Part shown: positions 2,041 to 28,099 of the stretch, piece by piece
Layout of the letters: the number at the start of each line of letters is the position of its first letter
How positions within the stretch are numbered: position 1 is the first letter of the stretch
Notes under the pieces: model-generated
Databases searched by the model: none
What the model was told of the DNA's origin: nothing
What the model saw: only the letters and a program-made list of their open reading frames with translations
Assembly (NCBI GenBank): GCA_000687695.1
Contig: JHWZ01000015.1
Span: 1-64,000, forward strand
Origin: Lachnospiraceae bacterium P6B14
GTDB lineage: Bacteria > Bacillota > Clostridia > Lachnospirales > Lachnospiraceae
Length of the DNA stretch: 64,000 nucleotides
Direction of reading: 5' to 3'
Translations under genes and position numbers: made by a program

Positions 2041-3645
2041 CTACACCAGTGAATCAAACACCTTGAGGACAAACTGCGCGAGCTTTCTCAGTCGCGGTCT
2101 GTGCTTCCACTCATCATAAGTGATCTCTCTGCTGACGCGTATCGTCTCGGCGATATCACTCTCAACACTGCCCACAAACTGCCTGTCATAAACCCAGATA
2201 CCATTTTCATAATGAAGATAAAAGCTTCGGTAATCCATATTTACCGTACCCACGATAACACTGTGCTCATTCATGATTACCTTCGTATGGATGAATCCCG
2301 GAGTATACTCGTATATTCTGATACCATTTTTCAAAAGTACTCCGTAATTATACTCAGTCATCCATTTGATACGCTTTTTATCAGGAATATTCGGCGTGAT
2401 TATACGCACATCTACGCCCCTGAGCCTCGCCTCCACCAGCGAGTCGATCATCATATCCTCGAGGATCAGGTACGGTGTCGTCACAAAAAGCTTCCGCTCC
2501 GAATACTGGATCATCTGTTTGTACGCTATACTGAAAAAGCTCCTCGGTCCCAACGCAGGACCGTCCCTTAACACATGACAGTACACATCATTCACGGGCG
2601 ACGGCTTCATCGTACGATATCTGTTGAAATTGATCTTCTCATCGGGATGACATGCATGCCACATCTCCAAAAATGTGATCGTCATGCCCCACACAGCGTC
2701 ACCGCTCACACGGATCCCGGCATCCTTCCAAACTCCGAAACGCTCAACGAGATTTGCGTACTCATCAGCGATATTGAACCCGCCCGTGTAAGCATACTCT
2801 CCATCTATAACGACGATCTTCTGATGCGTCCTGAAGTTCATGTAAAGCTTGTTCACATAACGGCCGATCGGATTAAAAACGACCACCTCGATCCCTTCTT
2901 CACGAAGCGTCGACGCAAACGTCGTCGGCGTACGCATCAGCGCCCCGAAGTCATCAAACATAAACTTGACCTCGACGCCCTCCTTGCGTTTTCTCACTAA
3001 GAGCTCATGAAGCTTGTCCCAGAGTGCTCCCTCTGCAACGATAAAAAACTCCAGAAAAATAAACCTTCTCGCATTCTCAAGCTTTTCAAAGATATCATCG
3101 AGCACCAGCTCGCCCATCTCGAAGTAAACGGCCTCATTATTCTTGCAAATCGGCATACCCTCAGCGTCCATATACGAGGACAGCCTTGACGAAACCGGAT
3201 GCTGTCTGCGGAAAACCTCGGAAACCTCAGGATATCTGATCAGTTGTTTATCGATCCATGCAAAACGCTTGGCAATTTGGCGGTTCAGGGCATTTTTCCT
3301 GCCGACACGACCGAACATGAAAAACATCACGATACCGGCTATCGGCAACACGACGACGATCGACAGCCAACCGAACTTGTAACTCATGGATCTGTCATCA
3401 TTGGTAAGAAGAAGGATGGCGAGAATCCCGCATCCCTCCGTGATCAGGTAGAACGCCGATGAAAATTGTCCCAAAAGAAAAGGTATGGCAATAATGATCG
3501 CGAACTGAAGGATAACCAAAGAAGCCACGACAAGCGCCCTTTTAAAGCCACTTGAAGAGCTCTCGACACGACCCTCCATATCCCGCAGATGCTTAAGCCT
3601 GCGGTGATCGCGCCACCTCATATTCCTGTCACGTTTCGTAGCCAT
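2041..3645 (-). CDS. cls: Cardiolipin synthase (phospholipase D family)
   Basis: The enzyme condenses phosphatidylglycerol molecules to cardiolipin at the membrane. Two HKD motifs are visible: HQKIVVIDGEYAYTGG in the middle and HTKVIMNEHSVIVGTVNMD near the C-terminus. Two hydrophobic segments near the N-terminus (VASLVILQFAIIIAIPFLL and the following SIVVVLPIAGIVMFF) anchor it, as is usual for bacterial Cls. The open frame extends 38 codons further, but the ATG at 3645 is chosen because GGAGGAAACG precedes it; the protein is then 534 residues. It stands alone upstream of ruvA and is divergent from the exonuclease-like gene at 3829. Confidence 0.93.
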   Translation of the reverse strand: MATKRDRNMRWRDHRRLKHLRDMEGRVESSSSGFKRALVVASLVILQFAIIIAIPFLLGQFSSAFYLITEGCGILAILLLTNDDRSMSYKFGWLSIVVVLPIAGIVMFFMFGRVGRKNALNRQIAKRFAWIDKQLIRYPEVSEVFRRQHPVSSRLSSYMDAEGMPICKNNEAVYFEMGELVLDDIFEKLENARRFIFLEFFIVAEGALWDKLHELLVRKRKEGVEVKFMFDDFGALMRTPTTFASTLREEGIEVVVFNPIGRYVNKLYMNFRTHQKIVVIDGEYAYTGGFNIADEYANLVERFGVWKDAGIRVSGDAVWGMTITFLEMWHACHPDEKINFNRYRTMKPSPVNDVYCHVLRDGPALGPRSFFSIAYKQMIQYSERKLFVTTPYLILEDMMIDSLVEARLRGVDVRIITPNIPDKKRIKWMTEYNYGVLLKNGIRIYEYTPGFIHTKVIMNEHSVIVGTVNMDYRSFYLHYENGIWVYDRQFVGSVESDIAETIRVSREITYDEWKHRPRLRKLAQFVLKVFDSLV

Positions 3646-3828
3646 CGTTTCCTCCACCGGGGTATCAGGACCCACTTTCACCAATACTTTTATATAATAA
3701 CATATTTTTTTTGATTGCGCTAGCCTAAAATGTATGTTATGATAAAAAAAATACAACATCTTGGTATTTTTATGAAAATATGATTATAGTGACATTCATA
3801 TGTAGGCATAAAGAAGGGAACGCTTGAA

Positions 3829-4914
3829 ATGGAGACATACACCGCAACACTGAATATCGACCCCGACAGTCTCAGGCAGATCAGACAGCTTCTGCCATCT
3901 GAAAATACGTGCTTTTTTGATATAGAAACAACAGGCCTGTCGCCGAGTGTTTCAAATGTATATCTGATAGGTGCAGCCGAGATCACTGACGGCAAAGCTG
4001 CTCTCACACAGTGGTTTGCGGATGACTATACCTCTGAGCCTGCTCTTTTAGAGGCTTTTTCAGAGTATCTGTCACGTTTTGATACCGTGGTTCATTATAA
4101 CGGAACAACCTTTGATGTGCCTTATCTTACAAAAAAATACGTATATCACAACATCCCTGATCCCTTTTTGAAGTTAGACAGTCTGGATCTGTATCGAGAG
4201 GTCAACTCATTCTGCAGGAAACACCGAAAGGATAAGACCGCACCAAATATATTCGGAACGGAAAACCTGAAGCTCACCTCTATAGAGAAAGCTGTCGGAT
4301 TTGACCGGGGACAGGATTTCTCGGGTAAGGAATGTATAGACATCTACACTACGTATATGCAGGAAAAGTTCGCGCATAACGAGGCAAACACGGCTTCTCT
4401 CAGAGGGTCTCTGCTCTCACACAATCATGACGACCTGATAGGGACCATGCTCTCTACTCTCATGCTCACGTACACAAGGTACACACCAAACACTCCTACG
4501 TTTACGATGACCGAGGACACCGCCATTTTTAATGACATCTTGCCCGAGGGACTTTATTATCCGTTTACACTGACCTATGATAACGTACGTATGTCAGGAT
4601 CTGAGGTCACAGTAAGAGTACCCATGTATACAGGCACTCTGTATCACTACTTCCCGGATCACAAAAACTACTATTATCTCCCGGATGAGGATATGGCAGT
4701 CCACAAATCCGTCGGCGGATACGTTGATAAGGATCACAGAGAACAGGCTACTGCTCTAAACTGCTACACAAAAAAAACAGGTACGTTCATACCTGTTCCC
4801 GATAAGTATTCCACAGACTCGCCGATTTTCCATGAAAAAAACGCCCCGAAGGGCGCTTGTTACATCGAGAATCACTCTGCTTCTGCAGTTGAGATGATCT
4901 CCTTTTTGTTATAG
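3829..4914 (+). CDS. RNase H-like 3'-5' exonuclease domain protein (YprB type)
   Basis: A 361-residue plus-strand gene among minus-strand neighbours. Residues about 28-200 form an RNase H-like exonuclease fold of the YprB/DEDD class: FDIETTGLSP gives the first acidic pair, VVHYNGTTFDVPYL the second, and SHNHDDLIGTM near residue 205 the third acidic site. The C-terminal about 130 residues are not recognised. Such proteins are annotated as ribonuclease H-like; the substrate is not known. The start follows AGGGAACGCTTGAA. The last 43 bp overlap the end of rpmF on the opposite strand, so the two mRNAs have complementary 3' ends. Confidence 0.8.
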   Translation: METYTATLNIDPDSLRQIRQLLPSENTCFFDIETTGLSPSVSNVYLIGAAEITDGKAALTQWFADDYTSEPALLEAFSEYLSRFDTVVHYNGTTFDVPYLTKKYVYHNIPDPFLKLDSLDLYREVNSFCRKHRKDKTAPNIFGTENLKLTSIEKAVGFDRGQDFSGKECIDIYTTYMQEKFAHNEANTASLRGSLLSHNHDDLIGTMLSTLMLTYTRYTPNTPTFTMTEDTAIFNDILPEGLYYPFTLTYDNVRMSGSEVTVRVPMYTGTLYHYFPDHKNYYYLPDEDMAVHKSVGGYVDKDHREQATALNCYTKKTGTFIPVPDKYSTDSPIFHEKNAPKGACYIENHSASAVEMISFLL

Positions 4915-5060
4915 CTGCCGCAGTTCTTGCATACGCGATGCGGAACCATCAGAGAACCACACTTACTGCACTTTACAAGTGTAGCTGCTGACATCTTCCA
5001 ATTTGCTCTACGCTTATCTCTGCGTGCCCTGGATGATTTATTCTTAGGACAGATACTCAT
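4872..5060 (-). CDS. rpmF: 50S ribosomal protein L32
   Basis: Small 62-residue ribosomal protein of the large subunit. It starts MSICPKNKSSRARRDKRRANW, as L32 proteins do, and has a zinc ribbon with two CxxC pairs (CSKC and CKNC), so this is the zinc-binding form. The ATG at 5060 has AAGGAGGTGTATCAGAC before it. It has its own strong promoter at 5136-5164. In many Firmicutes a DUF177 gene lies directly upstream; here the upstream gene is a cell-wall hydrolase instead. Its 3' end overlaps the convergent gene ending at 4914. Confidence 0.96.
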   Translation of the reverse strand: MSICPKNKSSRARRDKRRANWKMSAATLVKCSKCGSLMVPHRVCKNCGSYNKKEIISTAEAE

Positions 5061-5135
5061 GTCTGATACACCTCCTTAATTCTTTCTTATATCAAATAAT
5101 CATTATAATTTGCGTTAAACACGCTCACTTGACCT

Positions 5136-5164
5136 ATTATATAGGTATGAGTCCGCGTTGTCAA
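5136..5164 (-). promoter_or_regulatory. Promoter of rpmF
   Basis: A perfect consensus sigma-A promoter reads leftward: TTGACA at 5164-5159, a 17 bp spacer, and TATAAT at 5141-5136. It lies just after the stop codon of the hydrolase gene and about 75 bp before the rpmF start. Strength fits a ribosomal protein gene. Confidence 0.8.
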
Positions 5165-5186
5165 GCAGTTTTTTCTATTTTTTTAC

Positions 5187-6743
5187 CTATTTTTTCTTAT
5201 CTGCAGAACTATCCGAAAGCGCGGGACTGTCCTTTAGTACCATAACGGTATGATGCCCCTCCGCGACAAGGATATCTCCTCGTTTCAGGTTATCCGATGA
5301 AGACAGGTATTTCTTTTCGGTATATACCGTAAAAAGTCCGGTTTTCTCTAGCATCTTGGCCATGTTCCCGGTATAGAACGTATCCCTGTAATCCGGGAAC
5401 GGCAAGGTCTTGTTATATGCGTAATACCCGCAGTTAACAACTACTCTTATCAGCGACGAGCAGTCAGCCTCGCATGCATTCTTTATGTTTTTCAGAACCC
5501 AATTCACCTTTGCAGCCTCAACGAAGCAGGTATCACGGTTATCCTGGGCATATCCGATATTGTCATTTGCACAGGCCTGCTCCATTGCCTTTGCCATCAG
5601 GTTTGCGGCTTTCTCATCCTTGCAGCGGATCATCTTGTTCCAGCCGTTAACATACCACGCACGCACATAGACCTCACGTCCTGTCTGATCACCCGGAATA
5701 CCCTTACTGATCTTTGAGTTTTCATTGATGGACGCATGTCCTATCGCAACCATACTCTCATCAACGACGATAGGCGGTTGCTTGGTGTATTTCGGTGTAG
5801 CCGTTGCAGTCGCGGTAGGTTTAGCAGATGCAGTAGGCTTAGCAGATGCAGTGGGCTTAGCCGATGCAGTGGGCTTAGCCGATGCTGTGGGCTTTGGTGT
5901 TTTGGTTGGCTTTGGAGTTTTTGTCGGCTTCGGTGTGGCTGTAGGCGTAGCGGTCGGAGTCGGCGAAGCAACAACTGACTCCTCTTTTACAGTAACCTTA
6001 CAGGTGTATGTAAGCTTTCCGATCTTTCCGGTCAGGGTAGCCTTGCCCTTTTTAAGACCGGTGAGAGAAACCGTGTACTTGGTCGTTTTACTTATACTTG
6101 CGTATGTCTCCCCCTCCTTGTCCAAAGACCATGTGACCTTTTTCGGAGCATTCACCATCTTGACCTTTTTGGTCTTTCCTACATACATCGACACCTTCGT
6201 CTTGCTGAGTGAAGCAGGCGTAGCTGTCGGAGTAGCCGTAGCTACAGGTGTTTTGGTCGGCTTAGGTGTCTTGGACACCTTTGGGGTAGCTGTAGGCTTT
6301 GGTGTTTTGGTCGGCTTGGGAGTTTTTGTAGGCTTGGGAGTGGCGGTCGATACAGGGGTAGATGTAGCCTCCTGCTCCTTTTTAACAGTCACGGCACATG
6401 TGTATGTGACAGAATCGATCGTGGCAAAAACATTTGCCTTACCTTTCTTTAGGCCTTCGATCGTAACGGAATTATCTGACTGTTTTTTGAAAGAAATGAT
6501 ACCGGCGCTCGAAGCATCCATAGACCATGCTGCCTTTTTGGTGGTATTTTCCACGGAAAGCTTTTTGGTCTTGCCGATGTAGACTGTAAGCTTATCCTTA
6601 CTGAGTCCAACCGTATTCGCTGCAGTCGCCGCCGTATCAGTATTGGATTTTTTAGCGTAAATCGGTTCACTGTAAGCCAGGCCACCGAAAACAAGCGACA
6701 TGACTAACAGCATCGCGATTCGTTTTTTAACTCTCCCACTCAT
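5187..6743 (-). CDS. Secreted cell-wall hydrolase-like protein with two Ig-like domains
   Basis: A signal peptide (KKRIAMLLVMSLVFGGLAYS, cleavage near the alanine before KKSN) is followed by two bacterial Ig-like (Big-type) domains, each with a 'VYIGKTKKL' or 'MYVGKTKKV' core and ending TYTCxVTVK. Thr/Pro/Lys-rich linkers (repeated KPTKTP, ATP and KPTASA units) join them to a C-terminal domain. That domain has ADCSSLIRVVVN and, about 60 residues later, GHHTVMVL, matching the Cys and His of NlpC/P60 or CHAP-like cysteine peptidases; it is probably a peptidoglycan hydrolase. The ATG at 6743 is preferred for its GGAGGAGAT site; the frame extends 12 codons further into ackA's stop. It lies between ackA and rpmF, where DUF177 is common. 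Confidence 0.75.
   Translation of the reverse strand: MSGRVKKRIAMLLVMSLVFGGLAYSEPIYAKKSNTDTAATAANTVGLSKDKLTVYIGKTKKLSVENTTKKAAWSMDASSAGIISFKKQSDNSVTIEGLKKGKANVFATIDSVTYTCAVTVKKEQEATSTPVSTATPKPTKTPKPTKTPKPTATPKVSKTPKPTKTPVATATPTATPASLSKTKVSMYVGKTKKVKMVNAPKKVTWSLDKEGETYASISKTTKYTVSLTGLKKGKATLTGKIGKLTYTCKVTVKEESVVASPTPTATPTATPKPTKTPKPTKTPKPTASAKPTASAKPTASAKPTASAKPTATATATPKYTKQPPIVVDESMVAIGHASINENSKISKGIPGDQTGREVYVRAWYVNGWNKMIRCKDEKAANLMAKAMEQACANDNIGYAQDNRDTCFVEAAKVNWVLKNIKNACEADCSSLIRVVVNCGYYAYNKTLPFPDYRDTFYTGNMAKMLEKTGLFTVYTEKKYLSSSDNLKRGDILVAEGHHTVMVLKDSPALSDSSADKKK
5812..5900 (-). repeat. 18-bp tandem repeats coding for KPTASA units
   Basis: Four near-identical 18 bp units code for consecutive six-residue KPTASA repeats in the linker before the hydrolase domain. 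Silent differences separate the copies, so they are not brand new. Copy number in such linkers often varies between strains. Confidence 0.7.
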
Positions 6744-11667: not shown

Positions 11668-12014
11668 AGTTGAACCCCCGTCCAAACCAGAGTCCCACGT
11701 ACTTCTACTATCATAGTCGGTCGTTATGGCATAAGCCATATTCCCTTACCCGTTGGAGATCGACATCCTCAGGGGTCGGTAGTGCGTAGGATCTTTGATA
11801 CCGCCACGCACGGGACGATACCAGGGAGCCTGCTAAGGATGATACCGAAGTGTGGTCGCAGGAAGCCTCACAACGGCATCAGGTGCGATTAGGCAGCCTG
11901 AGCTACTACTTTATTAGTATTAGCGTTTAATTTTAAAGTCTGCGTTTTAACGTGGTCACAGTCCACGGATAGCTTCTCCGTCTTCCGCCGGCCTGTCGAA
12001 ACCGGTACAAGCCC
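11653..12014 (-). ncRNA. ssrA: Transfer-messenger RNA (tmRNA)
   Basis: tmRNA rescues stalled ribosomes together with SmpB. The 5' end GGGCTTG pairs with CAGGTCC at the 3' end (two G-U pairs), followed at the 5' side by the conserved CGGTTTCGACAGG and at the 3' side preceded by the TTCAACT T-loop with a GGGGG/CCCCC stem. The single open tag frame at about 11893-11928 reads ANTNKVVAQAA and ends in TAA. The acceptor is followed by ACCT, so a full CCA is not encoded. smpB, rnr and secG lie upstream with an ABC/DUF4097 block in between. A promoter is at 12075-12102. Overall about 362 nt, normal for one-piece tmRNA. Confidence 0.93.
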
Positions 12015-12074
12015 TCGGTTGATCTCCGCGCATCCTAAACGCGGAATAAAAACTCAACGCCTTCCACAGCGTTT

Positions 12075-12102
12075 TGTATATTGTAATAAAAACTCTTGTC
12101 AA
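12075..12102 (-). promoter_or_regulatory. Promoter of tmRNA
   Basis: TTGACA (12102-12097), a 16 bp spacer and TATACA (12080-12075) read leftward, about 60 bp before the mature tmRNA 5' end. The -35 box begins inside the T run of the preceding gene's terminator. Confidence 0.65.
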
Positions 12103-12111
12103 AAAATAGAC

Positions 12112-12138
12112 GGGTCACGGAATATATTTCCGTGACCC
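12112..12138 (-). terminator. Terminator of the ABC permease gene
   Basis: A perfect 11 bp stem GGGTCACGGAA/TTCCGTGACCC with a 5-base loop, followed on the minus strand by a short spacer and TTTTTT. It starts 29 bp after the permease stop codon and runs straight into the tmRNA promoter. Confidence 0.85.
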
Positions 12139-12166
12139 TCATATGATTAGGAGTAGATCGTAACAG

Positions 12167-14215
12167 CTAGTTTATTGCACCCGCATCCTGAAGCACCTTG
12201 ATGGTATTCATACTTTCAGGTGTCAGGCAGACGCTGACATGCATCTCATCAGACCTTCGTATATAGTCCGGATCCTCTTCACGTGTCGGATCGGATATGT
12301 ATAACTTCATGTTTATCTGGCAGATAGTATCGTTTGCTTTCTGATCTCCTACAAAATCAGCAGTCTTTTTGGTATAAGGAAGTACTGTTCCCTCCGCCAT
12401 GTCAGCAAGGACAGCATAATATAGATCCGTATTGTTTACATGACTCAGTCTTACTATCTCATTTTCTGCGCCATCATCATTCGGAAGCGTTGCCGGATCC
12501 TTGAAAACCTGAGTCTCATGCTTCACAACGGTACCATCCGCATAATCATAAATGAAATCACCGTTTGTGTTATAATCTTCAATAGTTGGATCAACCTCGG
12601 TAACGAACGCATCTGCATCCCATTTTATGCTATTTTCGTCTGAAAAATTAGAGAAGTTGATCTCAGCCGTATTCAGCTTTTTCGGATTACTTCCGAGCAT
12701 GCTGTACGCCATATGAGCTCCGTCCTTTACAAATGGAAGGAACGAATCCAGCACCTGATTGATGGTCTCTTTGTTCAATGAAAACTCAGTAATATATGCC
12801 TGGTCGTCAGCTCCAAACCGGAACAACACCCCATAATTCATCTGACCGGACTCATCTATACCAAACCCGTTTCTTGAATCATTTTTGAGTCTGGTATCGT
12901 TAATCAGTTCGTTCTGCTTTTCCAGGATACTTTTTACTATCTCAGGATCCTTGTCTTTGTAAAAGACGATCTCATCAAGATCACCTGCGTTTGTTCCCTC
13001 CAGGCTGATCCATACATCATCTACTTCATCAAAGGACGGCAGAAGCTTCGGTCCGATAACACCGGTAACCAAAAGCACAAGATAAAGCGCCATAGCTCCG
13101 ATAGTTATACCACCCTGCAGGAAGTTCGTCTTTTTATTCTTAAAAATGTGAATCGTCTTCTGCAGAAGCATCTCACTTACGAAAAATCCAATGATTCCAC
13201 CGATCAAAAGAGCCACTACAGTCATCGTAACAAGCATAGGTCTGTTTCTGTCGACAACAATAAATCCTGAACAAAGATATATCACGCCTCCAAACACAAG
13301 GCCTGCCATACAGACCATGAAGAGGACACGAAATACGATCTTGCACCAGTCAAATGCGACCATCTCGCCTGTCTTCTCAAGCTTTTTACGGTTGTATAGG
13401 ATCGCTGATAATACAAACAGTACTGCTGCCGGGATAAGCATCCAAAGACAGCCGAGATACCCTCCCACGCCGCTTACTTCTTTCGCGACTTCATCAATTC
13501 CAAGTGAACTTGAAGTCTTTACGAAAAAGCCAACAGGGAATAAGATTTCATAACCGCCGTAGAACGCCTCTGAAATCCCTCCGTTTCCATAGCTTTTTAC
13601 GATCGGATGATACAAAATCAGACTGTTGATAAACGAAATAATAATCCTTGCAAATATCCAAAGTGCATTGAGCACACCGTATGTAGCAAAAGTAAGAATT
13701 GCATTTCCGCATACAACTACCGCAAACAATGCGAGCGAGAAGAAAAACAATATCTCAACCAATGATTCCACTAAACCAAGCAGGATGATGGGATACATCC
13801 ATCCGTATCCTCCCACAAGCGGGATGACAGACAGATAGCAAACAAGTACAGTTCCAATCATCGTGATAAGACAAGATATGGAAAATGTCCCAAAGTACTC
13901 GAGTCGTGAAACCGGGAAAGAATGAAGCATATATGATGCTCTCTTTTTGTATCCGTAGTTGAATGTAATAACTGCAAGACAAATGCATATCGCCCCGATC
14001 AGAACAGGATTTGTAAGCAGCTCAACTATATCACGAACAGCATATAATGTCGAAGCCTGAGCCTCTATGGCATCATCATTTACAAGTCTCATCACTTCAG
14101 GAATAAACCCGAAGCCAAAAAACACGATAAGCATGGTGATAATGGTGGTAAGATGACCCTTCAGCTCGATGGCCAACAGCTTTTTATTACAAAAGGATGT
14201 CTTTGATCGCATCAT
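12167..14215 (-). CDS. ABC transporter permease with large extracytoplasmic domain
   Basis: A 682-residue membrane protein. The first about 400 residues contain roughly ten hydrophobic segments (e.g. TTIITMLIVFFGFGFIPEV, LIGAICICLAVITFNYGY, VALLIGGIIGFFVSEMLL) and the last about 280 form a hydrophilic domain presumably outside the membrane. It is the permease partner of the adjacent ATPase, as in GntR/YtrA-linked ABC-2 exporters of Firmicutes. The ATG at 14215 (or the next codon, 14212) follows GGGAGGTGAGA; the frame overlaps the ATPase end by about 29 bp, so the two are coupled. Substrate unknown; such systems usually respond to envelope stress or antimicrobial compounds. Confidence 0.8.
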   Translation of the reverse strand: MMRSKTSFCNKKLLAIELKGHLTTIITMLIVFFGFGFIPEVMRLVNDDAIEAQASTLYAVRDIVELLTNPVLIGAICICLAVITFNYGYKKRASYMLHSFPVSRLEYFGTFSISCLITMIGTVLVCYLSVIPLVGGYGWMYPIILLGLVESLVEILFFFSLALFAVVVCGNAILTFATYGVLNALWIFARIIISFINSLILYHPIVKSYGNGGISEAFYGGYEILFPVGFFVKTSSSLGIDEVAKEVSGVGGYLGCLWMLIPAAVLFVLSAILYNRKKLEKTGEMVAFDWCKIVFRVLFMVCMAGLVFGGVIYLCSGFIVVDRNRPMLVTMTVVALLIGGIIGFFVSEMLLQKTIHIFKNKKTNFLQGGITIGAMALYLVLLVTGVIGPKLLPSFDEVDDVWISLEGTNAGDLDEIVFYKDKDPEIVKSILEKQNELINDTRLKNDSRNGFGIDESGQMNYGVLFRFGADDQAYITEFSLNKETINQVLDSFLPFVKDGAHMAYSMLGSNPKKLNTAEINFSNFSDENSIKWDADAFVTEVDPTIEDYNTNGDFIYDYADGTVVKHETQVFKDPATLPNDDGAENEIVRLSHVNNTDLYYAVLADMAEGTVLPYTKKTADFVGDQKANDTICQINMKLYISDPTREEDPDYIRRSDEMHVSVCLTPESMNTIKVLQDAGAIN

Positions 14216-15092
14216 TCTCACCTCCCAACTCATTTATGAATATCTCTTCAAGCGACAGCGGCATAAACTCGGTAAATACCGGTGCTGTTTCCCGAATCCT
14301 TGTTTCCAATACTTCGCGCTCTCCCTCCAGGATTAACGTATGCATACGCCCCTGCGAAGTATGACGTAGAACTTTCATTCCCTCTCCGAACTCAGGAAGC
14401 TCGCCTTCTTCCTGATAAGCGATCGTAACCTTGGCAAAGCCCTCCTGCAATTCATCATAGGACTTCTCCATGATTATCTGTCCGTGATTCATGATACCTA
14501 TATGATCACAGACATCCTCCAACTCACGCAGGTTATGCGATGATACAAGCACCGTCGTTCCGTCCGTGGCCACACTTTCCATGATGATCTTCCATACGGT
14601 GTGTCTCGCCATCGGATCAAGTCCGTCCATCGGCTCATCAAGTATAAGAATATCCGGACGCGCGCTGATAGCAAGAAGTACCGAAGCCTGTTTCTGCATA
14701 CCCTTTGACATTTTTCTGAAAAGTGTTTTCTCATCGAGCTTATCAAAAAGCCCTATAAGTCTCTTCAGTCTTTCCTCATCAAACTTCGGATAAACGGCTT
14801 TATATAACCGCGCCATATTTTTTAGTGTAGATCCGCTTGTGTAGTAGATCTCGTCCGGAACATATGCCATCTTCTCCTTGATAGCTTTGTTCTCGTACAC
14901 AGGCTCGTCGTCGATCTTTATCTCACCCGAGTCCGCGTTAAAAATGCCCATGATATGTCTGATCAAAGTGGACTTTCCGCTTCCGTTCGGTCCGACCAGG
15001 CCGTAAACACTGCCGGTCTCGACTGTAAAGTTCACCCCGTCGAGTGCCTTTACGCCGTCAAAGTCCTTTACGATCTCACTTCCAATAATCAT
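14187..15092 (-). CDS. ABC transporter ATP-binding protein
   Basis: The energy-coupling ATPase of the exporter. Motifs: Walker A GPNGSGKST, the signature MSKGMQKQASVLLAI (degenerate LSGGQ), Walker B DILILDEPMDGLD and the H-loop SSHNLREL. 301 residues when started at 15092, the third codon of the frame, which has the better distance to AAGGAGG. The gene overlaps the regulator upstream by about 17 bp and the permease downstream by about 29 bp, so the three form one operon under the promoter at 15551-15579. Confidence 0.92.
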   Translation of the reverse strand: MIIGSEIVKDFDGVKALDGVNFTVETGSVYGLVGPNGSGKSTLIRHIMGIFNADSGEIKIDDEPVYENKAIKEKMAYVPDEIYYTSGSTLKNMARLYKAVYPKFDEERLKRLIGLFDKLDEKTLFRKMSKGMQKQASVLLAISARPDILILDEPMDGLDPMARHTVWKIIMESVATDGTTVLVSSHNLRELEDVCDHIGIMNHGQIIMEKSYDELQEGFAKVTIAYQEEGELPEFGEGMKVLRHTSQGRMHTLILEGEREVLETRIRETAPVFTEFMPLSLEEIFINELGGENDAIKDILL

Positions 15093-19499: not shown

Positions 19500-20882
19500 T
19501 TAACTCTGTTTTTTGTTCCTGACAAAATCAGGAATCTTTATACCGCTGTCAGACGCAGATGAACTCTGTGGCTGAGGTGCCGGAGCCGGTGTAGGCGTCG
19601 GAGCCGGTGCAGGTGCCGGAGCAGCTGTTGTACCGGACGGATGAACAACCGACTGACTAACCACACCACCACTCTGCGGTGCTCTCGGAATACTCGGCTG
19701 AGGAGCCGATGCTCCTGCAGGCTGTGCTGTCGGCTGAGCCGGACGAGCTGCCTGAGCGCCAAATCCTTTATTCAAAAAGCTGAGACCCTGCGACTGCGGT
19801 TTCGCAGCAGCCGGTGAAGACGATGACGAACCCCCTGCCGGAGCAGCAGCTCTGCTCATGAAGCTCGGTCTGGCAGCAGATCCCGAAAATCCGCCACTGA
19901 ATACTGAGCTCGTAGCAGCTGTCGCCGAAACGGCGTCAATACCTGTTGCAATAACCGTGATAGTCACGGTATCGGAAGCATTCTCATCATACATGGAACC
20001 GAAGATGATATTCGCTTCCTCTCCTGCAAGCTGCTGTACATAGGATGCTGCCTCATTTGCCTCTATCAGGCTGACATCACCTGAGATATTGATGATGACG
20101 TGAGAAGCACCATCGATCGAAGTCTCAAGAAGTGGCGAACTGATAGCCTGCTTCACAGCATCTACGCACTTATCATCACCACTACCGGTACCGATACCGA
20201 TGTGGGCAATACCCTTATCCTTCATGACCGTAACGACATCGGCGAAGTCAAGATTGATAAGCGCCGGTGTGTTGATCAGGTCCGTGATACCCTGTACGCT
20301 CTGCTGAAGAACCTCATCAGCCTTCTTGAACGCGTCAGGAATCGAAGTCCTGCGGTCACATATAGCAAGAAGCTTCTCGTTCGGAATAACGATCAGCGTG
20401 TCAACACAGTTTTTCAGCTTGTCGATACCGCCGATAGCGTTGTTCATACGCTTTTTGCCCTCGAAAGCAAACGGCTTTGTTACGATACCGACTGTAAGCT
20501 TGCCCATCTCCTTTGCAATCTGGGCAATAACAGGCGCTGCACCCGTACCGGTTCCGCCACCCATACCACAGGTGACAAACACCATATCCGCGTCGCGTAC
20601 AGCCTCAGCGAGCTCCTCTCGGTTCTCCTCTGCTGCCTTCTCACCAACCTCGGGCACGGCTCCGCATCCAAGTCCCTTGGTCAGCTTCTCGCCGATCTGG
20701 ATCCACTTTGGTGCCTTGCACTCCTTCAGTACCTGAATATCTGTATTTACGCAGATAAAATCAACTCCACGGATTCCCTCTTCTATCATTTCATTTACAG
20801 CATTGTTGCCGGCACCGCCGACACCGATAACCAGAAGGTTTGCTGCTGCATCATCTCGTCCATTCGATTTGATCTCTAACAA
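19500..20882 (-). CDS. ftsZ: Cell division protein FtsZ
   Basis: Tubulin-like GTPase that forms the division ring. Motifs: [13 protein letters not shown], the GTP-binding [12 protein letters not shown] (about 104-115), [12 protein letters not shown] (T7 loop region). A long Pro/Ala/Gln/Ser linker follows, and the C-terminal peptide IPDFVRNKK is the conserved tail that binds FtsA/SepF. An ATG-start frame would begin at 20918, but AAGGAGG lies just before a TTG at 20882, and the product then opens MLEIKSN, as in related FtsZ proteins; the TTG start is chosen, 460 residues. ftsA is not present. The gene has its own promoter after the phosphorelay operon. Confidence 0.96.
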
Positions 20883-20926
20883 CGGTGTTTCCTCCTTTTT
20901 GGACAAATCACTCCACATACAGATAT

Positions 20927-20955
20927 ATATTACGAAATTTTTACAAAAAAATCAA
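20927..20955 (-). promoter_or_regulatory. Promoter of ftsZ
   Basis: TTGATT (20955-20950), 17 bp, TAATAT (20932-20927) lies in the gap between the large kinase gene and ftsZ, about 45 bp before the TTG start. Confidence 0.55.
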
Positions 20956-20990
20956 GTAGTATTTTCTAAAAGATGCGAAAAAATGCGAAA

Positions 20991-23900
20991 TCACTCGTCA
21001 AATGCAGCCGAAACCGCATCAAAATCGAAGTTGTCGACAGCCTGACGTATGGTAGCAACACGCTCCTTTTCATCATCCGGCATACGGAAACCTTCGAGTT
21101 CCGACAGTACATCGGAGATTCCCACATCGTCACAGTCGGCAGCGTACGACCTGATACGTTCGTATAAATCATTCAGAGTATCCGCATCTACGACAGGTAA
21201 ACTGTCATCCTCGGCCGGCTCATCCTCGCCAACTTTGACAACCGGACGCAGAATCTCTCTGTAGGAGACATAATCCGTCATTACCCTGTCATGGTTTTCA
21301 CGGATAAAGTCTATATCCCCACTCTTTCCGGCTATCTCGAGTGCTTCGGCATCGTTACCCAGATCCACGGCTCCGATAAGACGTGCGGAACTTTTTAACG
21401 CATGGATCTTTATCGTATAACTGTCCCAATCCTCTTCATCAAAGAACGCTTTTAATTCCTTTTCCTTTGCATCCATGGAGTCATAGAATATCTGGACCAC
21501 GTCGGAAAGAGCAGCCTCCGATCCGCAGCTTTTAAGCGCATAATCCGCATCGATGCCCTGAAGGGTGTGATAAACACTCTTTGGATTTTCTTCCGATGCT
21601 CCGTTCCTAATCTCATTTTCATCAGCCTCCCACTCGGGTGCTTCATCCGAGGCGGTAACGGCTGCCGTAGAACTCATATCCTCGTCACCCGGGAAGTCAA
21701 ACTCATCCGGAATATCCTCCTCATTCGGAGTATCCGGAACGAAGCCGCCAAGTCCGTAGCTGATATCACCTTCATCCATGTAGAGCAAGCCGAATGTTCC
21801 GGGTCCGCAGTTCGCAGAGATGGCTGATGATGCTTTCTGAAAGATAATATGTTTAAAATCAAACTTTTTCCTGACCTGTTCCTCTATCCAAACGAAATCT
21901 TCTTCTGTCAGATCAACATAAGTTACAAATAAAAGATCTCTATCAGGATTTGCTCTGGCAGGAAGCGCTCTCTTTAAATACTTTTCATAACATTTGTATG
22001 TGCTTCCCATCATCATGCGATCAACTCCGAATACATCATTTTTCACCCGAAGTGAAGGACGTATCCACAGTGACTTAAGAATAGAGTTCAGTCTAGGATT
22101 GATATGACCGCCTCTTGCCATATAGTCGGTTCCCGCGATGACAAAGCTGCAATGAATCCTCTTTTTTACCTCCTCGATCTCTTCGAGGATCTTTGGCACC
22201 GGCAATCCTCTCTGCGTCATACGATATGCAGACAGCACCAAAAGCGCCATCGCACTCGAAAGTCCACCCGAGCTTACAACAGAAACGTTTTCAAAGTTTC
22301 TCGCAGCTGCGCTTGCCCTGTTGAACTCCTCACTCATACTGGGGGTAAGCGTGATATGGATTATATGGTGCGCTCTTCCGAGATGTTTTGAGAAAAATGC
22401 CATGAAATCCTCTTCAGTCGGTGCATCCGATTTTACGTTATGCCCCGGTACACTCATATAGCGTATCAACTCGTCTGACACCATTTCCTCGCCATCGGCA
22501 AACACACCGTCGTCAGTATACACAACAAACGGTATGATCGGTATCTGCAGATCTCTGACGATCTCCTCCGGTATATCCGACATACTGCAGGTGGTGATGA
22601 GCACGGGGATCTTTTTCGCATATCGACCTGCGGTGTTAATATGTTCCTTCGTCATCTCACTATCGGATGTACGACGAACCTTTTCCTCAGGAAGGAATCG
22701 GATCAGCATATCCTCAAGCTGTTTACCCGAAACAGGCTTCATCAGATATGCATCAAAACCGGTCGTATTATAAAGCTCCTGATTCTCCCCTCCTGCATTT
22801 GCGGTAAGTACCACGATCGGTACATTTGTATTCAATCCACCTATCTGTCTTCTTATTTCCTTAAAGCACTCGATACCATCCATCTCAGGCATAAGGTGAT
22901 CTAAGAATATCACATCATAGCTGTTTTTCACTGTATATTTCAAGGCTTCAGCCCCGGATAAAGCCAGATCGATCGTCATCTCAGTACCGTCGAGCAGCTT
23001 TTTCTCGACCTCAAGGTTCATCTCATTGTCATCGACGATCAGAACTCTGGCCTTCGGAGCGTGGAACATATGCTCGAACTTTTCTGTTTTTCCGATATGT
23101 CCGCCGCCCTCTATCTGGATATTTCCGATACGCTCTTCGTCTTCGATCTTTTGACGCAGATCTACGGTAAAGGTCGATCCCTGCCCGTACACACTGTCAA
23201 CGGTGATCTGACCATCCATAAGCTCTACAAGCTGCTTTACTATGGAGAGGCCGAGTCCCGTACCTTCGATGTGGCGGTTTTTCTCCTCATCCACACGCTG
23301 GAAGGAATCAAACAAATGAGGCAGCGCATCCTGCTTGATACCCATTCCGGTATCAGAGACAACTGCCTTCAGGGTCACGTTTTCACCGCTTTCCCTCTCA
23401 CATTCCATATGCAGAGTGACCGAGCCTTCTTTTGTATACTTCACAGCGTTATTGAGCAGATTGATAAGAACCTGTTTAACACGGACCTCATCTCCGAAAA
23501 GAGTTGAAGGGATCGACGGATCTATATCAACGTTAAACTTAAGCCCCTTCTCCTCTGCCTTCAGCCAGATCATGTTTACGATCTCGGACACAAGCTCGCC
23601 GACATCATAACTCACCGGAACTATATCCATCTTTCCGGCTTCTATCTTGCTCACGTCAAGAATATCGTTGATAAGTGCAAGGAGCATCTTTCCTGCACCC
23701 TGTATGTTTCTCGCATCCTTTCTGATCTCTTCAGATGCATCCTCCTGCCTTAAGATTATCTCATTCAGGCCAAGTACTGTGTTGATGGGAGTACGGATCT
23801 CGTGGCTCATGCTCGAAAAAAACTGGTTTTGCGAGCGGATCGCCTCTTCAGCTCTGCGAGCCTCTTCGCGAGCTCGCTCACTCTCATTTTCAAACAGAAG

Positions 23901-24443
23901 GTTCAAAAACCATACCATGGTATACACTAAAAATCCTACGACCACAACGGAAATCCCGACATCTATGATAGTCATCGGGGTATCATGGAGCGCAACTGCA
24001 TCCGGGAAACAAAATGAAACGACAAGAGCAATTACGGTCTCAATCGTCACTACGGAAATCAGGATCCTCCTTATCATACCGGAGACGATGACACCGACGT
24101 ACATATATCCGAAGATTACCCAGATAATACCTCCGCCGGTTATTCCTCCGCCAAAATAGAATATTATGGGAAGAATTCCAAAGGTAAATCCGAATGCGAC
24201 CAACATGGCACCCAGATTCGCCTTTTTTTTCCATACGGAGATCGCGGTAATGGCAGGAACAGAGAACAATGCCCCTATCATTATAATGATCTCTATCAAA
24301 CTGTCTCCAGCGATAATATCACCAACCAGCGCCAGAAACTCGCCGACCATGGCTATTATCGTCATCATTACGAACTTTCTTTCCGTAAAGTTTCTTTCAG
24401 GATCTCTGAGGAAAGCCTTCAGCTTTTGAAATAGCTTCATCAC
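20991..24443 (-). CDS. Hybrid histidine kinase with REC, DegV and HPt domains
   Basis: A 1150-residue membrane signalling protein. About six hydrophobic segments (25-180) lead into a coiled coil, HisKA (SHEIRTPI, His214), HATPase with NLLNNAVKY, DTGMGI and GTGLGLS (about 329-400), a receiver (VDDNE, Asp515 in FLDHLMPEMDG, K569), a DegV domain (about 612-890) and an HPt domain with KIHALKSSA (His1014). DegV features are the ITTCSMSDIP start, PIIPF, ADGEEM, DYMARGGHINPRL and ANCGPGTFG. DegV proteins bind fatty acids (FakB in staphylococci). This DegV insertion inside a phosphorelay protein is unusual. The start overlaps the preceding kinase gene by 4 bp (ATGA). Role: presumably lipid-responsive phosphotransfer; no DNA-binding domain. 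Confidence 0.85.
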   Translation of the reverse strand: MMKLFQKLKAFLRDPERNFTERKFVMMTIIAMVGEFLALVGDIIAGDSLIEIIIMIGALFSVPAITAISVWKKKANLGAMLVAFGFTFGILPIIFYFGGGITGGGIIWVIFGYMYVGVIVSGMIRRILISVVTIETVIALVVSFCFPDAVALHDTPMTIIDVGISVVVVGFLVYTMVWFLNLLFENESERAREEARRAEEAIRSQNQFFSSMSHEIRTPINTVLGLNEIILRQEDASEEIRKDARNIQGAGKMLLALINDILDVSKIEAGKMDIVPVSYDVGELVSEIVNMIWLKAEEKGLKFNVDIDPSIPSTLFGDEVRVKQVLINLLNNAVKYTKEGSVTLHMECERESGENVTLKAVVSDTGMGIKQDALPHLFDSFQRVDEEKNRHIEGTGLGLSIVKQLVELMDGQITVDSVYGQGSTFTVDLRQKIEDEERIGNIQIEGGGHIGKTEKFEHMFHAPKARVLIVDDNEMNLEVEKKLLDGTEMTIDLALSGAEALKYTVKNSYDVIFLDHLMPEMDGIECFKEIRRQIGGLNTNVPIVVLTANAGGENQELYNTTGFDAYLMKPVSGKQLEDMLIRFLPEEKVRRTSDSEMTKEHINTAGRYAKKIPVLITTCSMSDIPEEIVRDLQIPIIPFVVYTDDGVFADGEEMVSDELIRYMSVPGHNVKSDAPTEEDFMAFFSKHLGRAHHIIHITLTPSMSEEFNRASAAARNFENVSVVSSGGLSSAMALLVLSAYRMTQRGLPVPKILEEIEEVKKRIHCSFVIAGTDYMARGGHINPRLNSILKSLWIRPSLRVKNDVFGVDRMMMGSTYKCYEKYLKRALPARANPDRDLLFVTYVDLTEEDFVWIEEQVRKKFDFKHIIFQKASSAISANCGPGTFGLLYMDEGDISYGLGGFVPDTPNEEDIPDEFDFPGDEDMSSTAAVTASDEAPEWEADENEIRNGASEENPKSVYHTLQGIDADYALKSCGSEAALSDVVQIFYDSMDAKEKELKAFFDEEDWDSYTIKIHALKSSARLIGAVDLGNDAEALEIAGKSGDIDFIRENHDRVMTDYVSYREILRPVVKVGEDEPAEDDSLPVVDADTLNDLYERIRSYAADCDDVGISDVLSELEGFRMPDDEKERVATIRQAVDNFDFDAVSAAFDE

Positions 24444-26497
24444 GCATCCCTCCCTTCTTCATTTGTCACGATCGAAGGAAGAACATGTTTCATTACCCTC
24501 TCAAACTCAGCTATGTCTATAGGCTTGGCTATAAAACCGTCAAAGCCCTCTTTCATAAACATTTCTCTGGCACCTGATAACGCATTTGCCGTAAGCGCTA
24601 TGATGACCGGTGACCTTCTCATACGATCCGCCATCTCGCGTATTCTCTTCATACACTCCACGCCATCCATTTCAGGCATCATATGATCCATATAGATAAC
24701 ATCGTAATCCTCTTTTTCATATTTTAACAAAGCCTCTGCTCCGCTTTCAGCCGTGTCCGTATACATTTTGTATTCACGAAGAAGACCTGATGCGACGACC
24801 AGATTCATTGGTTCATCATCGACGATAAGAGCGGTTCTTCCGACCAAAGACAGCTTATCCATCTTATCCTCGGTCTCCTCAAATACATATCCGTTATTAA
24901 GTATCTGAACGACAGGTATGCCGTATAGAGGTTTCGGCATGACCTTAATCTGACTGCCCTGTTCCAAAGAGAAGTCCGGAACGGCAGACATTGCCACCTG
25001 ATATCCGCGTTTGCAGAGATCTTCAAAATACTCCCTGTTGCTCTCATATTCATCCTGTCCCGTAAAAATATGAGTCACATTCAGTTTTTGCAACAACCTT
25101 TCGGTGTCCTCATTTGAACTTGCCGAGAACAAACGCACACCAAGACCTGTAGCAATATTTACTGCCATACGCTTGTAAAACTCTCTGACCATGGGGAGTT
25201 TGTACTTGCTCGGATCATTATAGAACATGATATCACCGGAGAAGCCTTCCTTTACACTGAGACACTTCGCCGGATCGATAACAACCTGAGGTATGGATAG
25301 TTTGACTGTTGTACCCATCCCCCTCTTACTTTCAATCTTAACGAATCCTTTCATCTTGTGGACAAATCCATAAACGATCGGAAGGCCGATACCTATACCT
25401 CCGGTACTTCTGTTTCTCTTTTTATTGGCCTGGTACATTCCCTTTGATACCTGCGCGATATCCTTTCTGGTCATTCCTACACCGGTATCGGCAACCTCAA
25501 TGATAAGATTGACGCCATAGTCTTTTGTTTTGGATGTTAACTTGATATAGATTCCTCCGGTGTGTGTAAACTTGATAGCATTGCTCAACAGATGCTTAAA
25601 CACCTTGTGAAGCTTTTTGATATCACCCTTCATCATGTTTGGAACATTCGGATCGAGATCCACTATCAGCTCAATATCTCTTTTTTCAGTACTCTGATGA
25701 TAATTTGTCACCACGTCATGAATAAGGGACATAGTCATATACTTTTCTTCCTCGAGAATCAGCTCGCCTCTTTTGATCTCAGTATAATCCTGAATACTCT
25801 CTATCTGATCAGAAAGCCTGAGCCCCGCGGCATAGATCGCGTCTACTTCCTCTGACTCCTCTTTATTCATAAAAAGCCTGGACATACCGTTTACTACATT
25901 TACGGGCGTACGAAGCTCATGCGAGATATTTGAAAGAAAATCTTCCATATCCTCGTTTGTTTCTTTTGCTTCGATCTCACCTCTAAGCTTTATTTCCTGT
26001 TGTGCTATACGGTTTCTGACCGTCAGACGACAGAATACGTAGATACAGACCACGGCTCCTGTATGAAGAATGATCCTTGAAATCAACAATGCATCCACCG
26101 ATGTCACCTCATCGGTATAATTCATCAAAACCTGGTTCATCATGACTGCAACAAACTCAATGAGAATGATATTCAGCATATACAATCTGTCAAGAAGCGA
26201 CATGACAGTAAGCATAATAGCAGTCACCACAACGACATCAAACTGGCTTGTTCTGTGTACGGCATGATAAAACGAAGCCATCAAGGCATACAAAAAGAAA
26301 AGCACTTTCATCTGGTTCTCAGTCATTCTGTGCGTAAAACTGATAACCAAAAGTGCTACAAGTGCTATAAAAACAACCGGGATCATCCATCCTTCCCAGC
26401 CTAAAAGGATCGTCTCCAATCCTAAACCAAGATAACCGACAGATATGACTGTCAGTACAAATGCTTCCAAACCGCTTGTTGTTTGTCTGTTTTCCAT
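24440..26497 (-). CDS. Membrane hybrid histidine kinase with pseudo-receiver and receiver
   Basis: A 685-residue protein. The first about 160 residues form five or six membrane helices (e.g. VVFIALVALLVISF, VVVVTAIMLTVMSL, IILHTGAVVCIYVF) without a recognised ligand domain. HisKA with SHELRTPV (His193) and HATPase with LLSNAIKFT, DTGVGM and GGIGIGL follow. Residues about 420-535 look like a receiver fold without acidic site. The C-terminal receiver (VDDEPMNL, Asp604 in MDHMMPEMDG, AKPI) is complete. It overlaps the DegV kinase start by 4 bp and follows the double-receiver gene by 3 bp, so all three are one translation unit. Confidence 0.88.
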   Translation of the reverse strand: MENRQTTSGLEAFVLTVISVGYLGLGLETILLGWEGWMIPVVFIALVALLVISFTHRMTENQMKVLFFLYALMASFYHAVHRTSQFDVVVVTAIMLTVMSLLDRLYMLNIILIEFVAVMMNQVLMNYTDEVTSVDALLISRIILHTGAVVCIYVFCRLTVRNRIAQQEIKLRGEIEAKETNEDMEDFLSNISHELRTPVNVVNGMSRLFMNKEESEEVDAIYAAGLRLSDQIESIQDYTEIKRGELILEEEKYMTMSLIHDVVTNYHQSTEKRDIELIVDLDPNVPNMMKGDIKKLHKVFKHLLSNAIKFTHTGGIYIKLTSKTKDYGVNLIIEVADTGVGMTRKDIAQVSKGMYQANKKRNRSTGGIGIGLPIVYGFVHKMKGFVKIESKRGMGTTVKLSIPQVVIDPAKCLSVKEGFSGDIMFYNDPSKYKLPMVREFYKRMAVNIATGLGVRLFSASSNEDTERLLQKLNVTHIFTGQDEYESNREYFEDLCKRGYQVAMSAVPDFSLEQGSQIKVMPKPLYGIPVVQILNNGYVFEETEDKMDKLSLVGRTALIVDDEPMNLVVASGLLREYKMYTDTAESGAEALLKYEKEDYDVIYMDHMMPEMDGVECMKRIREMADRMRRSPVIIALTANALSGAREMFMKEGFDGFIAKPIDIAEFERVMKHVLPSIVTNEEGRDA

Positions 26498-26500
26498 AGG

Positions 26501-27283
26501 CTATTTTTCCTTTTTGTGACTTGCTATAACTGCTTTGATCTTTCCCAAGAGCTCTTCCCTTGATGTTGTCTTGAGAATGTACCCCGCCGGTCCCAGACTC
26601 ATTACTCGCTGCACGCTTTCCTTGGTTCCTACACCCGTCAAAAATACAACAGGGATATCTTTGACCTCATCTTCACTGCGGAGCATCTCCAGTACCTTTG
26701 GTCCGTCCACTACCGGCATCTCATAGTCAAGCAGGATGAGATCTACTTTATTCTTCATCAAAAATGTGATCGCCTGAGTTCCGTTAAGAACGATATTGGT
26801 CTGGTATTTATCTCCGATCCAGCCTCGAACGACCTTGGCGTATGCCGGATCATCATCCACGATAAGAATCCTCGATTGTCCGCCGTCATTTTCATCATCT
26901 ACAAGCTGATCGATCATATCACCGAGCTTATCCATATTGATCGGCAGATAAAAGCGATCAAAATCCGACAGATTTTTCTTCTTTCTGGTGATATCGACCA
27001 AAAAATCCTTCTCACCGATCAGGATCATCTTCTGACCGGTCACATCAACCTCATCGATAATCTCATTCAAAAGTGTCATGCTGTCAACATCGTCAGTGAT
27101 GGACTCGGACAAGTACAGCACGAAAAGATCGACCTTTCCCGCATGTCTGCTTATCTCTCGAATATCCGCCCCTATATTGGTAACCTTAAAATGCAGATCC
27201 TCGAGTTTATTTTTAATGCCTCTGAGCACTATACTCTGCTGGATCTCTATAACAACGAGATGCTTTCCTTCTCTATCAGTCAT
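26501..27283 (-). CDS. Response regulator with two receiver domains, no output domain
   Basis: A 260-residue protein. The C-terminal receiver (about 135-258) is complete: VDDDPAYAK, phosphoacceptor Asp186 in LLDYEMP, FLTGVG and ILKTTS. The N-terminal half (to about 120) has a receiver-like fold pattern (LVVIEI, VDLFVLYLSE, MILIGEKDF, FYLP) but no phosphoacceptor Asp. There is no DNA-binding or enzyme domain, so it acts through protein contacts, like CheY- or Spo0F-type shuttles. The ATG at 27283 is preferred (AAAGGGGAAGTAT); an ATG six codons earlier lacks a site. First gene of the three-gene phosphorelay operon. Confidence 0.85.
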   Translation of the reverse strand: MTDREGKHLVVIEIQQSIVLRGIKNKLEDLHFKVTNIGADIREISRHAGKVDLFVLYLSESITDDVDSMTLLNEIIDEVDVTGQKMILIGEKDFLVDITRKKKNLSDFDRFYLPINMDKLGDMIDQLVDDENDGGQSRILIVDDDPAYAKVVRGWIGDKYQTNIVLNGTQAITFLMKNKVDLILLDYEMPVVDGPKVLEMLRSEDEVKDIPVVFLTGVGTKESVQRVMSLGPAGYILKTTSREELLGKIKAVIASHKKEK

Positions 27284-27323
27284 ATACTTCCCCTTTCGCA
27301 TGTCTTTTCGCGTCGTACATTTT

Positions 27324-27353
27324 ATTATAACAAAAAAAGCCCCACTTTCGCAA
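27324..27353 (-). promoter_or_regulatory. Promoter of the phosphorelay operon
   Basis: TTGCGA (27353-27348), 18 bp, TATAAT (27329-27324). The -35 box lies in the terminator hairpin of ftsQ and the -10 box follows the T run. The distance to the start codon is about 40 bp. Confidence 0.55.
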
Positions 27354-27357
27354 GGCT
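27338..27357 (-). terminator. Terminator downstream of ftsQ
   Basis: AGCCTTGC and GTGGGGCT form a short stem with flanking A and T runs (AAAA...TTTTTTT), so it can act in both directions. It separates the ftsQ end from the signalling operon. Confidence 0.7.
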
Positions 27358-27376
27358 TTTTTGCGTTTCTTCTACA

Positions 27377-28099
27377 TTACTTACTGTCTTTTTTAAAAAT
27401 GATAGTCGATCCGGCCTTATAGTTTGTCATGTCAATGGTTCCCTTGTCTCCACTCCTCTTTGCGGTCTTCATTATATCAGGCAGTATCGATATAACCTCG
27501 TCGTAGTCACTTCTCCTGCCGAGTTTCACCGTTACCTTTCCGCTGTGCAGTTCCGCATGCCCCTCCGTATCAAAAACAGCTTTATCCCAGTCAATACTGT
27601 AATATGTGAGCCTGCTCGACATATTCAGCATCTGAGACAAAAGCTCCTCCCTGCCGGTAGACAAGGTCTGATACAGGGTAAAATCAGTGACATCATCCGT
27701 CTCAAAATAAGGGATATCCTTTATTTCTTCCTCTGTTGTTTTCAAAACCATCCCATCCTTGTCGAAATAGATAAAATGTCTTGAAAACTTGACTCCCGCA
27801 AGTATCTTCTTTTCAACAAGCTTTATGTGCAGCTCCCCGAACGACGGATAGCTGAGCTCCGCCTCTCTCACATAAGGCGGATCCTTTGTAAACCCAAGCG
27901 CATCGTAAATAAGGTTTGTCAGGACATTTTTCTGAAAAAACGATGTCTGATAGGTCTTTGCGACCTCATCCTCTTTAAAAAAAGTATTACCCTCGACAGT
28001 CACTGTTCTTATCTTGAACAAAAACCACAGCGAGATTAGCAATACCGCGACTATCGCTACTATAATGGGTATTTTATATCTAAGCTTCAATCCACGCAT
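27377..28099 (-). CDS. ftsQ: Cell division protein FtsQ/DivIB
   Basis: A 240-residue bitopic membrane protein: short basic N-terminus, one helix (IPIIVAIVAVLLISLWFLF) and an extracytoplasmic POTRA domain beginning IRTVTVEGNTFFKEDEV, the hallmark of FtsQ/DivIB. It bridges FtsL, FtsB and FtsW/PBP in the divisome. It lies 28 bp after ftsW in the division cluster; in most Firmicutes murG or murB would sit between. Sequence identity to known DivIB is low, so the call rests on topology, POTRA pattern and position. Confidence 0.85.
   Translation of the reverse strand: MRGLKLRYKIPIIVAIVAVLLISLWFLFKIRTVTVEGNTFFKEDEVAKTYQTSFFQKNVLTNLIYDALGFTKDPPYVREAELSYPSFGELHIKLVEKKILAGVKFSRHFIYFDKDGMVLKTTEEEIKDIPYFETDDVTDFTLYQTLSTGREELLSQMLNMSSRLTYYSIDWDKAVFDTEGHAELHSGKVTVKLGRRSDYDEVISILPDIMKTAKRSGDKGTIDMTNYKAGSTIIFKKDSK

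Follow-up and report, generated by a model that had tools for sequence, protein, structure and literature searches.

What might a DegV domain, a lipid carrier fold, be doing inside a sensor kinase? The question is raised by a gene at positions 20991–24443 (minus strand) of a 64,000-nucleotide stretch of Lachnospiraceae bacterium P6B14 (contig JHWZ01000015.1, positions 1–64,000; hereafter the window). The gene encodes a 1150-residue protein in which a histidine kinase (HK), a receiver (REC), a DegV domain and a histidine phosphotransfer domain (HPt) follow one another. Its most defensible description is as one half of a recurrent kinase pair with one HPt, the DegV-bearing member of which carries a FakB-derived, non-catalytic, receptor-like domain. 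We propose, at roughly even odds (about 0.5), that this domain is a receptor that tunes a two-kinase relay with one HPt between the partners. If so, bacteria that live among fatty acids in the rumen and gut would have put a lipid carrier fold to use as a signalling input. The DegV-kinase design itself is found repeatedly in Lachnospiraceae of rumen and gut.

The open reading frame (ORF) opens with GTG and has ATG as codon 2, so the protein may truly start one residue later. Pfam found every domain that an earlier note on this DNA, made from the letters alone, had placed in the chain, all on the minus strand: HisKA (residues 205–270, 5e-17; positions 23634–23831), HATPase_c (residues 317–431, 9e-28; 23151–23495), the receiver (Response_reg, residues 467–580, 7e-21; 22704–23045), DegV (residues 615–889, 4.6e-35; 21777–22601) and Hpt (residues 981–1043, 5e-6; 21315–21503), the last scoring 27.1 bits where the cut-off is 24.6. 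The DegV match (PF02645, 121.7 bits against a cut-off of 27) spans profile positions 3–278 of 280, and NCBIfam TIGR00762 DegV is matched as well (6.7e-40); the complete domain proposed at about residues 612–890 thus passed the hidden Markov model search that had been suggested as its check. Residues 1–180 (23904–24443, minus strand) had no match in the Pfam scan and are taken as a membrane domain from the AlphaFold 2 (AF2) model, which predicts six long helices (19–45, 49–71, 75–97, 105–119, 122–145 and 155 onward) where membrane helices had been noted. A helical extension beyond the HPt (residues 1083–1150; 20994–21197, minus strand) is also taken from the model.

A scan of GTDB contigs gave at least 499 relatives, and the best 80 loci were examined; they come mostly from metagenome-assembled genomes titled Lachnospiraceae, many of them from rumen, together with some Butyrivibrio isolates. 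HK-REC-DegV-HPt stands in one ORF in 75 of the 80. Among the exceptions, L074 (split frame) and L080 (contig edge) are REC-DegV-HPt and L083 has another C-terminal domain; L077 and L103 do contain an intact HK-REC-DegV-HPt ORF and were tallied instead by a second DegV ORF. A chance ORF or a chimeric assembly is ruled out, since the order repeats in those 75 loci and the contig of a sister species has the same gene, its product 92% identical; the domain order is therefore real.

Conservation was scored on 72 aligned complete proteins with HPt after DegV (the HPt form: the window protein and 71 from the 80 loci). His214 of HisKA, Asn328, Asp364, Gly366 and Gly368 of HATPase, Asp471, Asp472, Asp515, Thr547 and Lys569 of the receiver, and His1014, Lys1017 and Ser1018 of the HPt are identical in all 72, and the positions earlier given for His214, Asp515 and His1014 were correct, each lying inside its Pfam domain. 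Judged by its sequence, the fusion is an HPt-bearing hybrid histidine kinase with all its domains and phosphorylatable residues. The mean frequency of the top residue is 0.89 in HisKA, 0.80 in HATPase, 0.79 in REC and 0.67 in DegV, compared with 0.52 in the N-terminal region, 0.53 in the C-terminal extension and 0.24 in the linker after DegV; lying above the N-terminal region and the linker and below HisKA, HATPase and REC, the DegV value indicates a domain under constraint. The AF2 model of the whole protein (predicted local distance difference test, pLDDT, 79; predicted template-modelling score, pTM, 0.39) shows kinase, receiver, DegV, helical HPt and then more helices. Since pLDDT is below 50 for residues 593–610, ahead of DegV, and 905–954, behind it, the model does not fix the relative placing of the domains; the second stretch, the linker of about 50 residues from DegV to HPt, is variable in sequence too.

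The HisKA-HATPase-REC-HPt order is that of the tripartite hybrid kinases of the BarA, TorS and ArcB type, and TorS and BarA are the best NCBIfam kinase matches of the fusion, far below their cut-offs. Unlike them, the fusion has its HPt separated from REC by DegV, and a second hybrid kinase, which lacks an HPt, is encoded just upstream. RpfC-type sensors, which respond to diffusible signal factor fatty acids, are likewise hybrid kinases with REC and HPt, but they sense through their N-terminal part and are not known to contain a DegV domain. Among the titles and abstract openings listed by literature searches of open-access PubMed Central, no description of a DegV-sensor kinase fusion was found.

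Modelled alone (54 aligned rows), the DegV domain reached pLDDT 92.9 and pTM 0.90. The first 45 Foldseek matches of this model are all DegV/FakB-type chains, several from entries titled as palmitic, oleic, vaccenic, myristic or stearic acid complexes. VIA-align placed 29 DegV/FakB-type entries, many titled as fatty-acid complexes, at Z 27.9–32.9, with DhaQ and DhaK coming well behind at about 16. On the predicted model, the fused domain is a full-length DegV/FakB fold and kin of fatty-acid-binding proteins; the relation drawn in the earlier note is borne out by the match to lipid-loaded DegV/FakB crystals (Z 28–33). The more distant DhaQ (Z 16.2), a DhaK-fold transcriptional co-activator of the dha operon, resembles the present case in that a related fold is put to regulatory use, and differs in having no kinase fusion.

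The partner hybrid kinase (685 residues; 24440–26497, minus strand) is encoded just upstream, in a gene that shares 4 bases with the fusion gene; Pfam finds HisKA, HATPase and a C-terminal REC in it and no HPt, and a pseudo-receiver between these domains was read by eye. A REC-only protein (266 residues; 26501–27301, minus strand) has a C-terminal receiver by Pfam and, read by eye, a pseudo-receiver as its N-terminal half; the Pfam scan finds no output domain in it. Clusters of homologues are present at 71 of the 80 loci for the partner kinase and at 52 for the REC-only protein.

Where does the HPt sit in such pairs? The count started from 120 fused rows, not deduplicated; 15 without an upstream domain ORF within 200 bases were left out. 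Among the 105 scored pairs, a few with a partial upstream ORF, the HPt is on the DegV kinase only in 79, on the upstream kinase only in 22, on neither in 4 and on both in none, so that 101 of 105 pairs have exactly one HPt. One counted pair, L074, was scored with the detached front half of the fusion gene itself as upstream ORF; the real partner kinase there also has no HPt. Fused relatives that end with DegV number 26 when counted as distinct (L013–L036 and two paralogues of the window genome, C10 and C7); for 22 of these, the HPt is borne by the upstream kinase. The remaining four comprise L014 and L035 (no scored upstream ORF), L017 (contig end) and L024 (an HPt region without His). Both paralogue pairs have the HPt on the upstream kinase and none on the DegV kinase, the C10 match of 22.2 bits falling just below the Pfam cut-off. 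Such a distribution suggests a single HPt used by both kinases, and it amounts to a natural experiment on relay sharing by paired kinases.

By eye, two of the four pairs without HPt, L017 and the second L103 copy, lie at the end of a contig or locus; the other two are L024 and L083. The L024 upstream kinase, also read by eye, has an HPt region without a phosphorylatable His beside an HPt-less DegV kinase. At L083 (8201–11521), the fusion protein has, where the HPt would be, a pseudo-receiver similar to the one in the REC-only protein; the upstream kinase has no REC, and no HPt was seen in the pair.

Does the fused domain still look like a FakB? The available parts of two reports on S. aureus FakB1 describe a fatty acid carboxylate networked with Thr62, Ser95, Ser171 and His270, and a region, 175–186, that enters the bilayer in simulations (PMC8892158, PMC9136124). 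In the parts available of the second report, Arg173 is required for the FakA reaction and dispensable for fatty acid exchange, and Arg205 contacts FakA and the membrane (PMC9136124). FakB1 numbering was transferred by motif and spacing on printed PDB alignments, with no superposition; tunnel positions are approximate. Residues were counted in distinct rows of 85 HPt-form fused, 27 HPt-less fused (L083 included) and 46 standalone DegV domains, after matches shorter than 220 residues, matches with E above 1e-10 and identical segments had been dropped. The standalone set is biased, L117–L145 being top-scoring DegV matches and L149–L160 the best standalone matches of the fused profile; L001–L003 in it are the window genome's own DegV proteins.

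The pocket residues of the window protein are Ser672, Ser704, Glu706, Gly778, His780, Met812 and Asn878. At the Thr62 position, Thr stands in 43/46 standalone domains, Ser in 82/85 of the HPt form and Ser or Thr in 21/27 of the HPt-less form, and Ser95 is kept in 45/46, 85/85 and 14/27, respectively. Arg173 is Arg in all 46 standalone domains, in 12/85 of the HPt form (Leu in 51, His in 8, as His780 in the window) and in 14/27 of the HPt-less form. Arg at the Arg205 position falls from 43/46 to 2/85 and 0/27 (Met812 in the window). His270 is His in 43/46 standalone domains and Asn in 84/85 HPt-form and 24/27 HPt-less rows (Asn878 in the window), and the Ser171 position is Gly in 45/46 standalone domains and Arg or Lys in 66/85 of the HPt form. 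The carboxylate network of the window protein therefore has Ser672 and Ser704 of the same kind as in FakB1, Gly778, and Asn878 for His270. Mean hydropathy of the loop after Arg173 is 0.60 in standalone, –0.29 in HPt-form and 0.22 in HPt-less domains. The approximate tunnel positions (Ser730, Cys765, Ile769, Leu798, Ala871 and Cys879) stay small or hydrophobic.

The fused domain is thus like FakB/DegV proteins (PF02645) in its fold across the whole domain and, in the HPt subtype, in the ligand-site Ser/Thr and Ser, and unlike them in being joined to a sensor kinase and in its changed Arg173, Arg205, His270 and hydrophobic exchange loop. By its residues, the window protein departs from FakB at the Arg173 and Arg205 equivalents. 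The HPt-form domain retains the fold and the hydroxyls, has a conserved Asn of its own and, to judge by these residues, has left the FakA pathway; the HPt-less form is more varied in its pocket. With these positions and the membrane-insertion loop changed, fatty-acid binding is not simply transferable from the family; at the same time, a pocket so exactly kept in the HPt form (Ser95 in 85/85, Ser at Thr62 in 82/85, Asn in 84/85) suggests a ligand. The pocket changes predict one that would be bound without the FakA reaction.

We infer from these features that the membrane-anchored hybrid kinase and its neighbouring hybrid kinase would form one two-kinase phosphorelay with one HPt between them, placed on the DegV kinase in this subtype and on the partner in 22 of the 26 sampled HPt-less relatives. 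The DegV module would be a FakB-derived receptor and a substrate carrier no more, having kept its fold and, in this subtype, the two hydroxyls by which FakB grips the head group of its ligand, and having probably lost the features that serve FakA and membrane docking. A cytosolic amphiphile, for which an acyl chain is the likeliest candidate, would occupy it. Occupancy would alter the seating of the module on the receiver, to which an 18-residue linker joins it, and would thereby change kinase or relay output, in whichever direction, toward the REC-only partner. A more specific form is put forward tentatively, at less than even odds: the FakB fold would have become a dedicated lipid receptor inside the cell for two-component signalling, with paired Lachnospiraceae kinases using DegV to read acyl chains of the cytosol, or some other amphiphile that fits a Ser/Ser/Asn pocket, and sharing one HPt that has moved between them.

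How does this proposal stand against other explanations? The earlier note had suggested that acyl chains modulate transfer from receiver to HPt within the chain. Such gating by a DegV-bound fatty acid would agree with the recurrence of REC-DegV-HPt in 75 of 80 loci and with the many DegV-family crystal structures titled with a fatty acid, but 26 fused relatives, both paralogues included, have no HPt after DegV and 22 of them have it upstream, which argues against a special role for DegV between receiver and HPt. With the linker 905–954 also variable and modelled at low confidence, the idea is unsupported as stated, and we regard it as unlikely. A fused DegV that still acts as a membrane-tethered FakB, carrying fatty acid to FakA, is very improbable: the genome does have a FakA-like gene and Arg173 persists in the 12 HPt-form and 14 HPt-less rows, but that position is His in the window and non-Arg in 73/85, and Arg205 is nearly absent from both fused forms, the roles of both residues being those given in the available parts of PMC9136124.

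Another idea, somewhat more likely and still doubtful, is that the DegV domain serves structure or protein docking and no longer binds a ligand. It would account for the changes at Arg173, Arg205, His270 and the FakB membrane loop, for Ser95 in only 14/27 HPt-less rows and for an acidic residue near Ser95 in 84/85 HPt-form rows, and it has a precedent in FakA_C, described in the available parts of one report as a FakB1-like fold without the tunnel (PMC9136124). It sits less well with the near-invariant Ser95, Ser at Thr62 and Asn878 positions of the HPt form and with approximate tunnel positions that stay small or hydrophobic.

Some of the same observations, and others, weigh against the receptor-tuned relay that we favour. 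Asp or Glu stands two residues past Ser95 in 84/85 HPt-form rows, where standalone domains have Thr, Ser or Cys; an acidic side chain there would probably lie near a bound carboxylate and disfavour it. Arg or Lys at the Ser171 position (66/85, Gly in the window) might offset it through a salt bridge, or the acidic residue could point to a head group that is neutral or basic. The loop equivalent to the membrane-exchange loop of FakB1 is more polar than in standalone domains, so loading would have to differ. The HPt-less form keeps Ser95 in only 14/27 rows and still has Arg173 in 14/27, and two of the window genome's three standalone DegV proteins carry Lys at the Arg205 position. A FastTree tree built from 111 distinct rows shows three changes of the HPt state; by our reading, L083 and the truncated second L103 copy, both counted among the HPt-less rows, account for two of these, leaving one real switch preserved in two lineages. 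With essentially one evolutionary switch, the 101 pairs are not independent events.

How widespread is the design? Six DegV matches in the window genome pass the cut-off: three are standalone, and three are fused (the window protein, C10 and C7). The genome also has one FakA-like match, and its three standalone DegV proteins are other candidates for serving its fatty acid kinase. Of 200 genomes sampled in the family, at least 34 (the window genome included) have a match running from the kinase into DegV, with three candidates scored per genome; the match in G163 starts inside HATPase. This family, f1, we infer from record titles to be Lachnospiraceae, some of the titles reading Oscillospiraceae, Clostridiaceae, Clostridia or Eubacterium. 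Among the matches listed, no fused ORF (frame above 700 residues) was found outside it in a 398-genome sample of the phylum or in a 146-genome sample of the order (E limit 1e-40). Three DegV frames of 580–620 residues in other genomes were judged by eye to be something other than this type of kinase fusion. Searching plasmids with the DegV part gave seven records; the matched stretch is annotated as a DegV family protein in six of them and has no annotated feature in the seventh. Two other DegV fusions were read by eye: a FakA-like kinase part joined to DegV in a 594-residue ORF (L207, 617–2401) and a HAD-type hydrolase joined to DegV in a 556-residue ORF (L208, 660–2330).

What might the module act on? 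In the window (19500–28099), as in the sister species, the three signalling genes lie between ftsQ and ftsZ, and FtsZ (19500–20918, minus strand; Pfam) is encoded directly downstream of the fusion gene in both; the ftsQ label was assigned by hand, Pfam giving no match, and those of ftsW, mraY and the penicillin-binding protein by eye. A link to cell division from this adjacency is not general. Only one of the 80 loci, the sister's contig (L037), has ftsZ beside the module. Within the genus, the module adjoins ftsZ in the window genome and G620, and ftsQ is next to ftsZ in the five other members examined that have a full-length HPt-form gene (G613, G599, G602, G601 and G618); G600 has a partial HPt-form match and no ftsQ match.

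Neighbours at other loci hint at a cyclic di-GMP output. The C10 pair adjoins a protein with REC, GGDEF and HD_5, with an EAL-GGDEF protein further on, and a cluster of proteins of about 460 residues, present in 19 of the 80 loci, has a GGDEF or GGEEF motif in 19/19, examples being annotated with REC. Genes of the sodium:alanine symporter family form a cluster in 41 of the 80 loci and DUF6976 genes one in 20, both identified by Pfam on the L062 and L054 members; at L062, DUF6976 and sodium:alanine symporter genes (11940–12905 and 12910–14433) lie near the DegV kinase. Upstream of the DegV kinase pair at L049 sits an HK-REC-HPt protein (2925–6125) with an N-terminal iron-sulfur, Fe-hydrogenase-like sequence, as read by eye.

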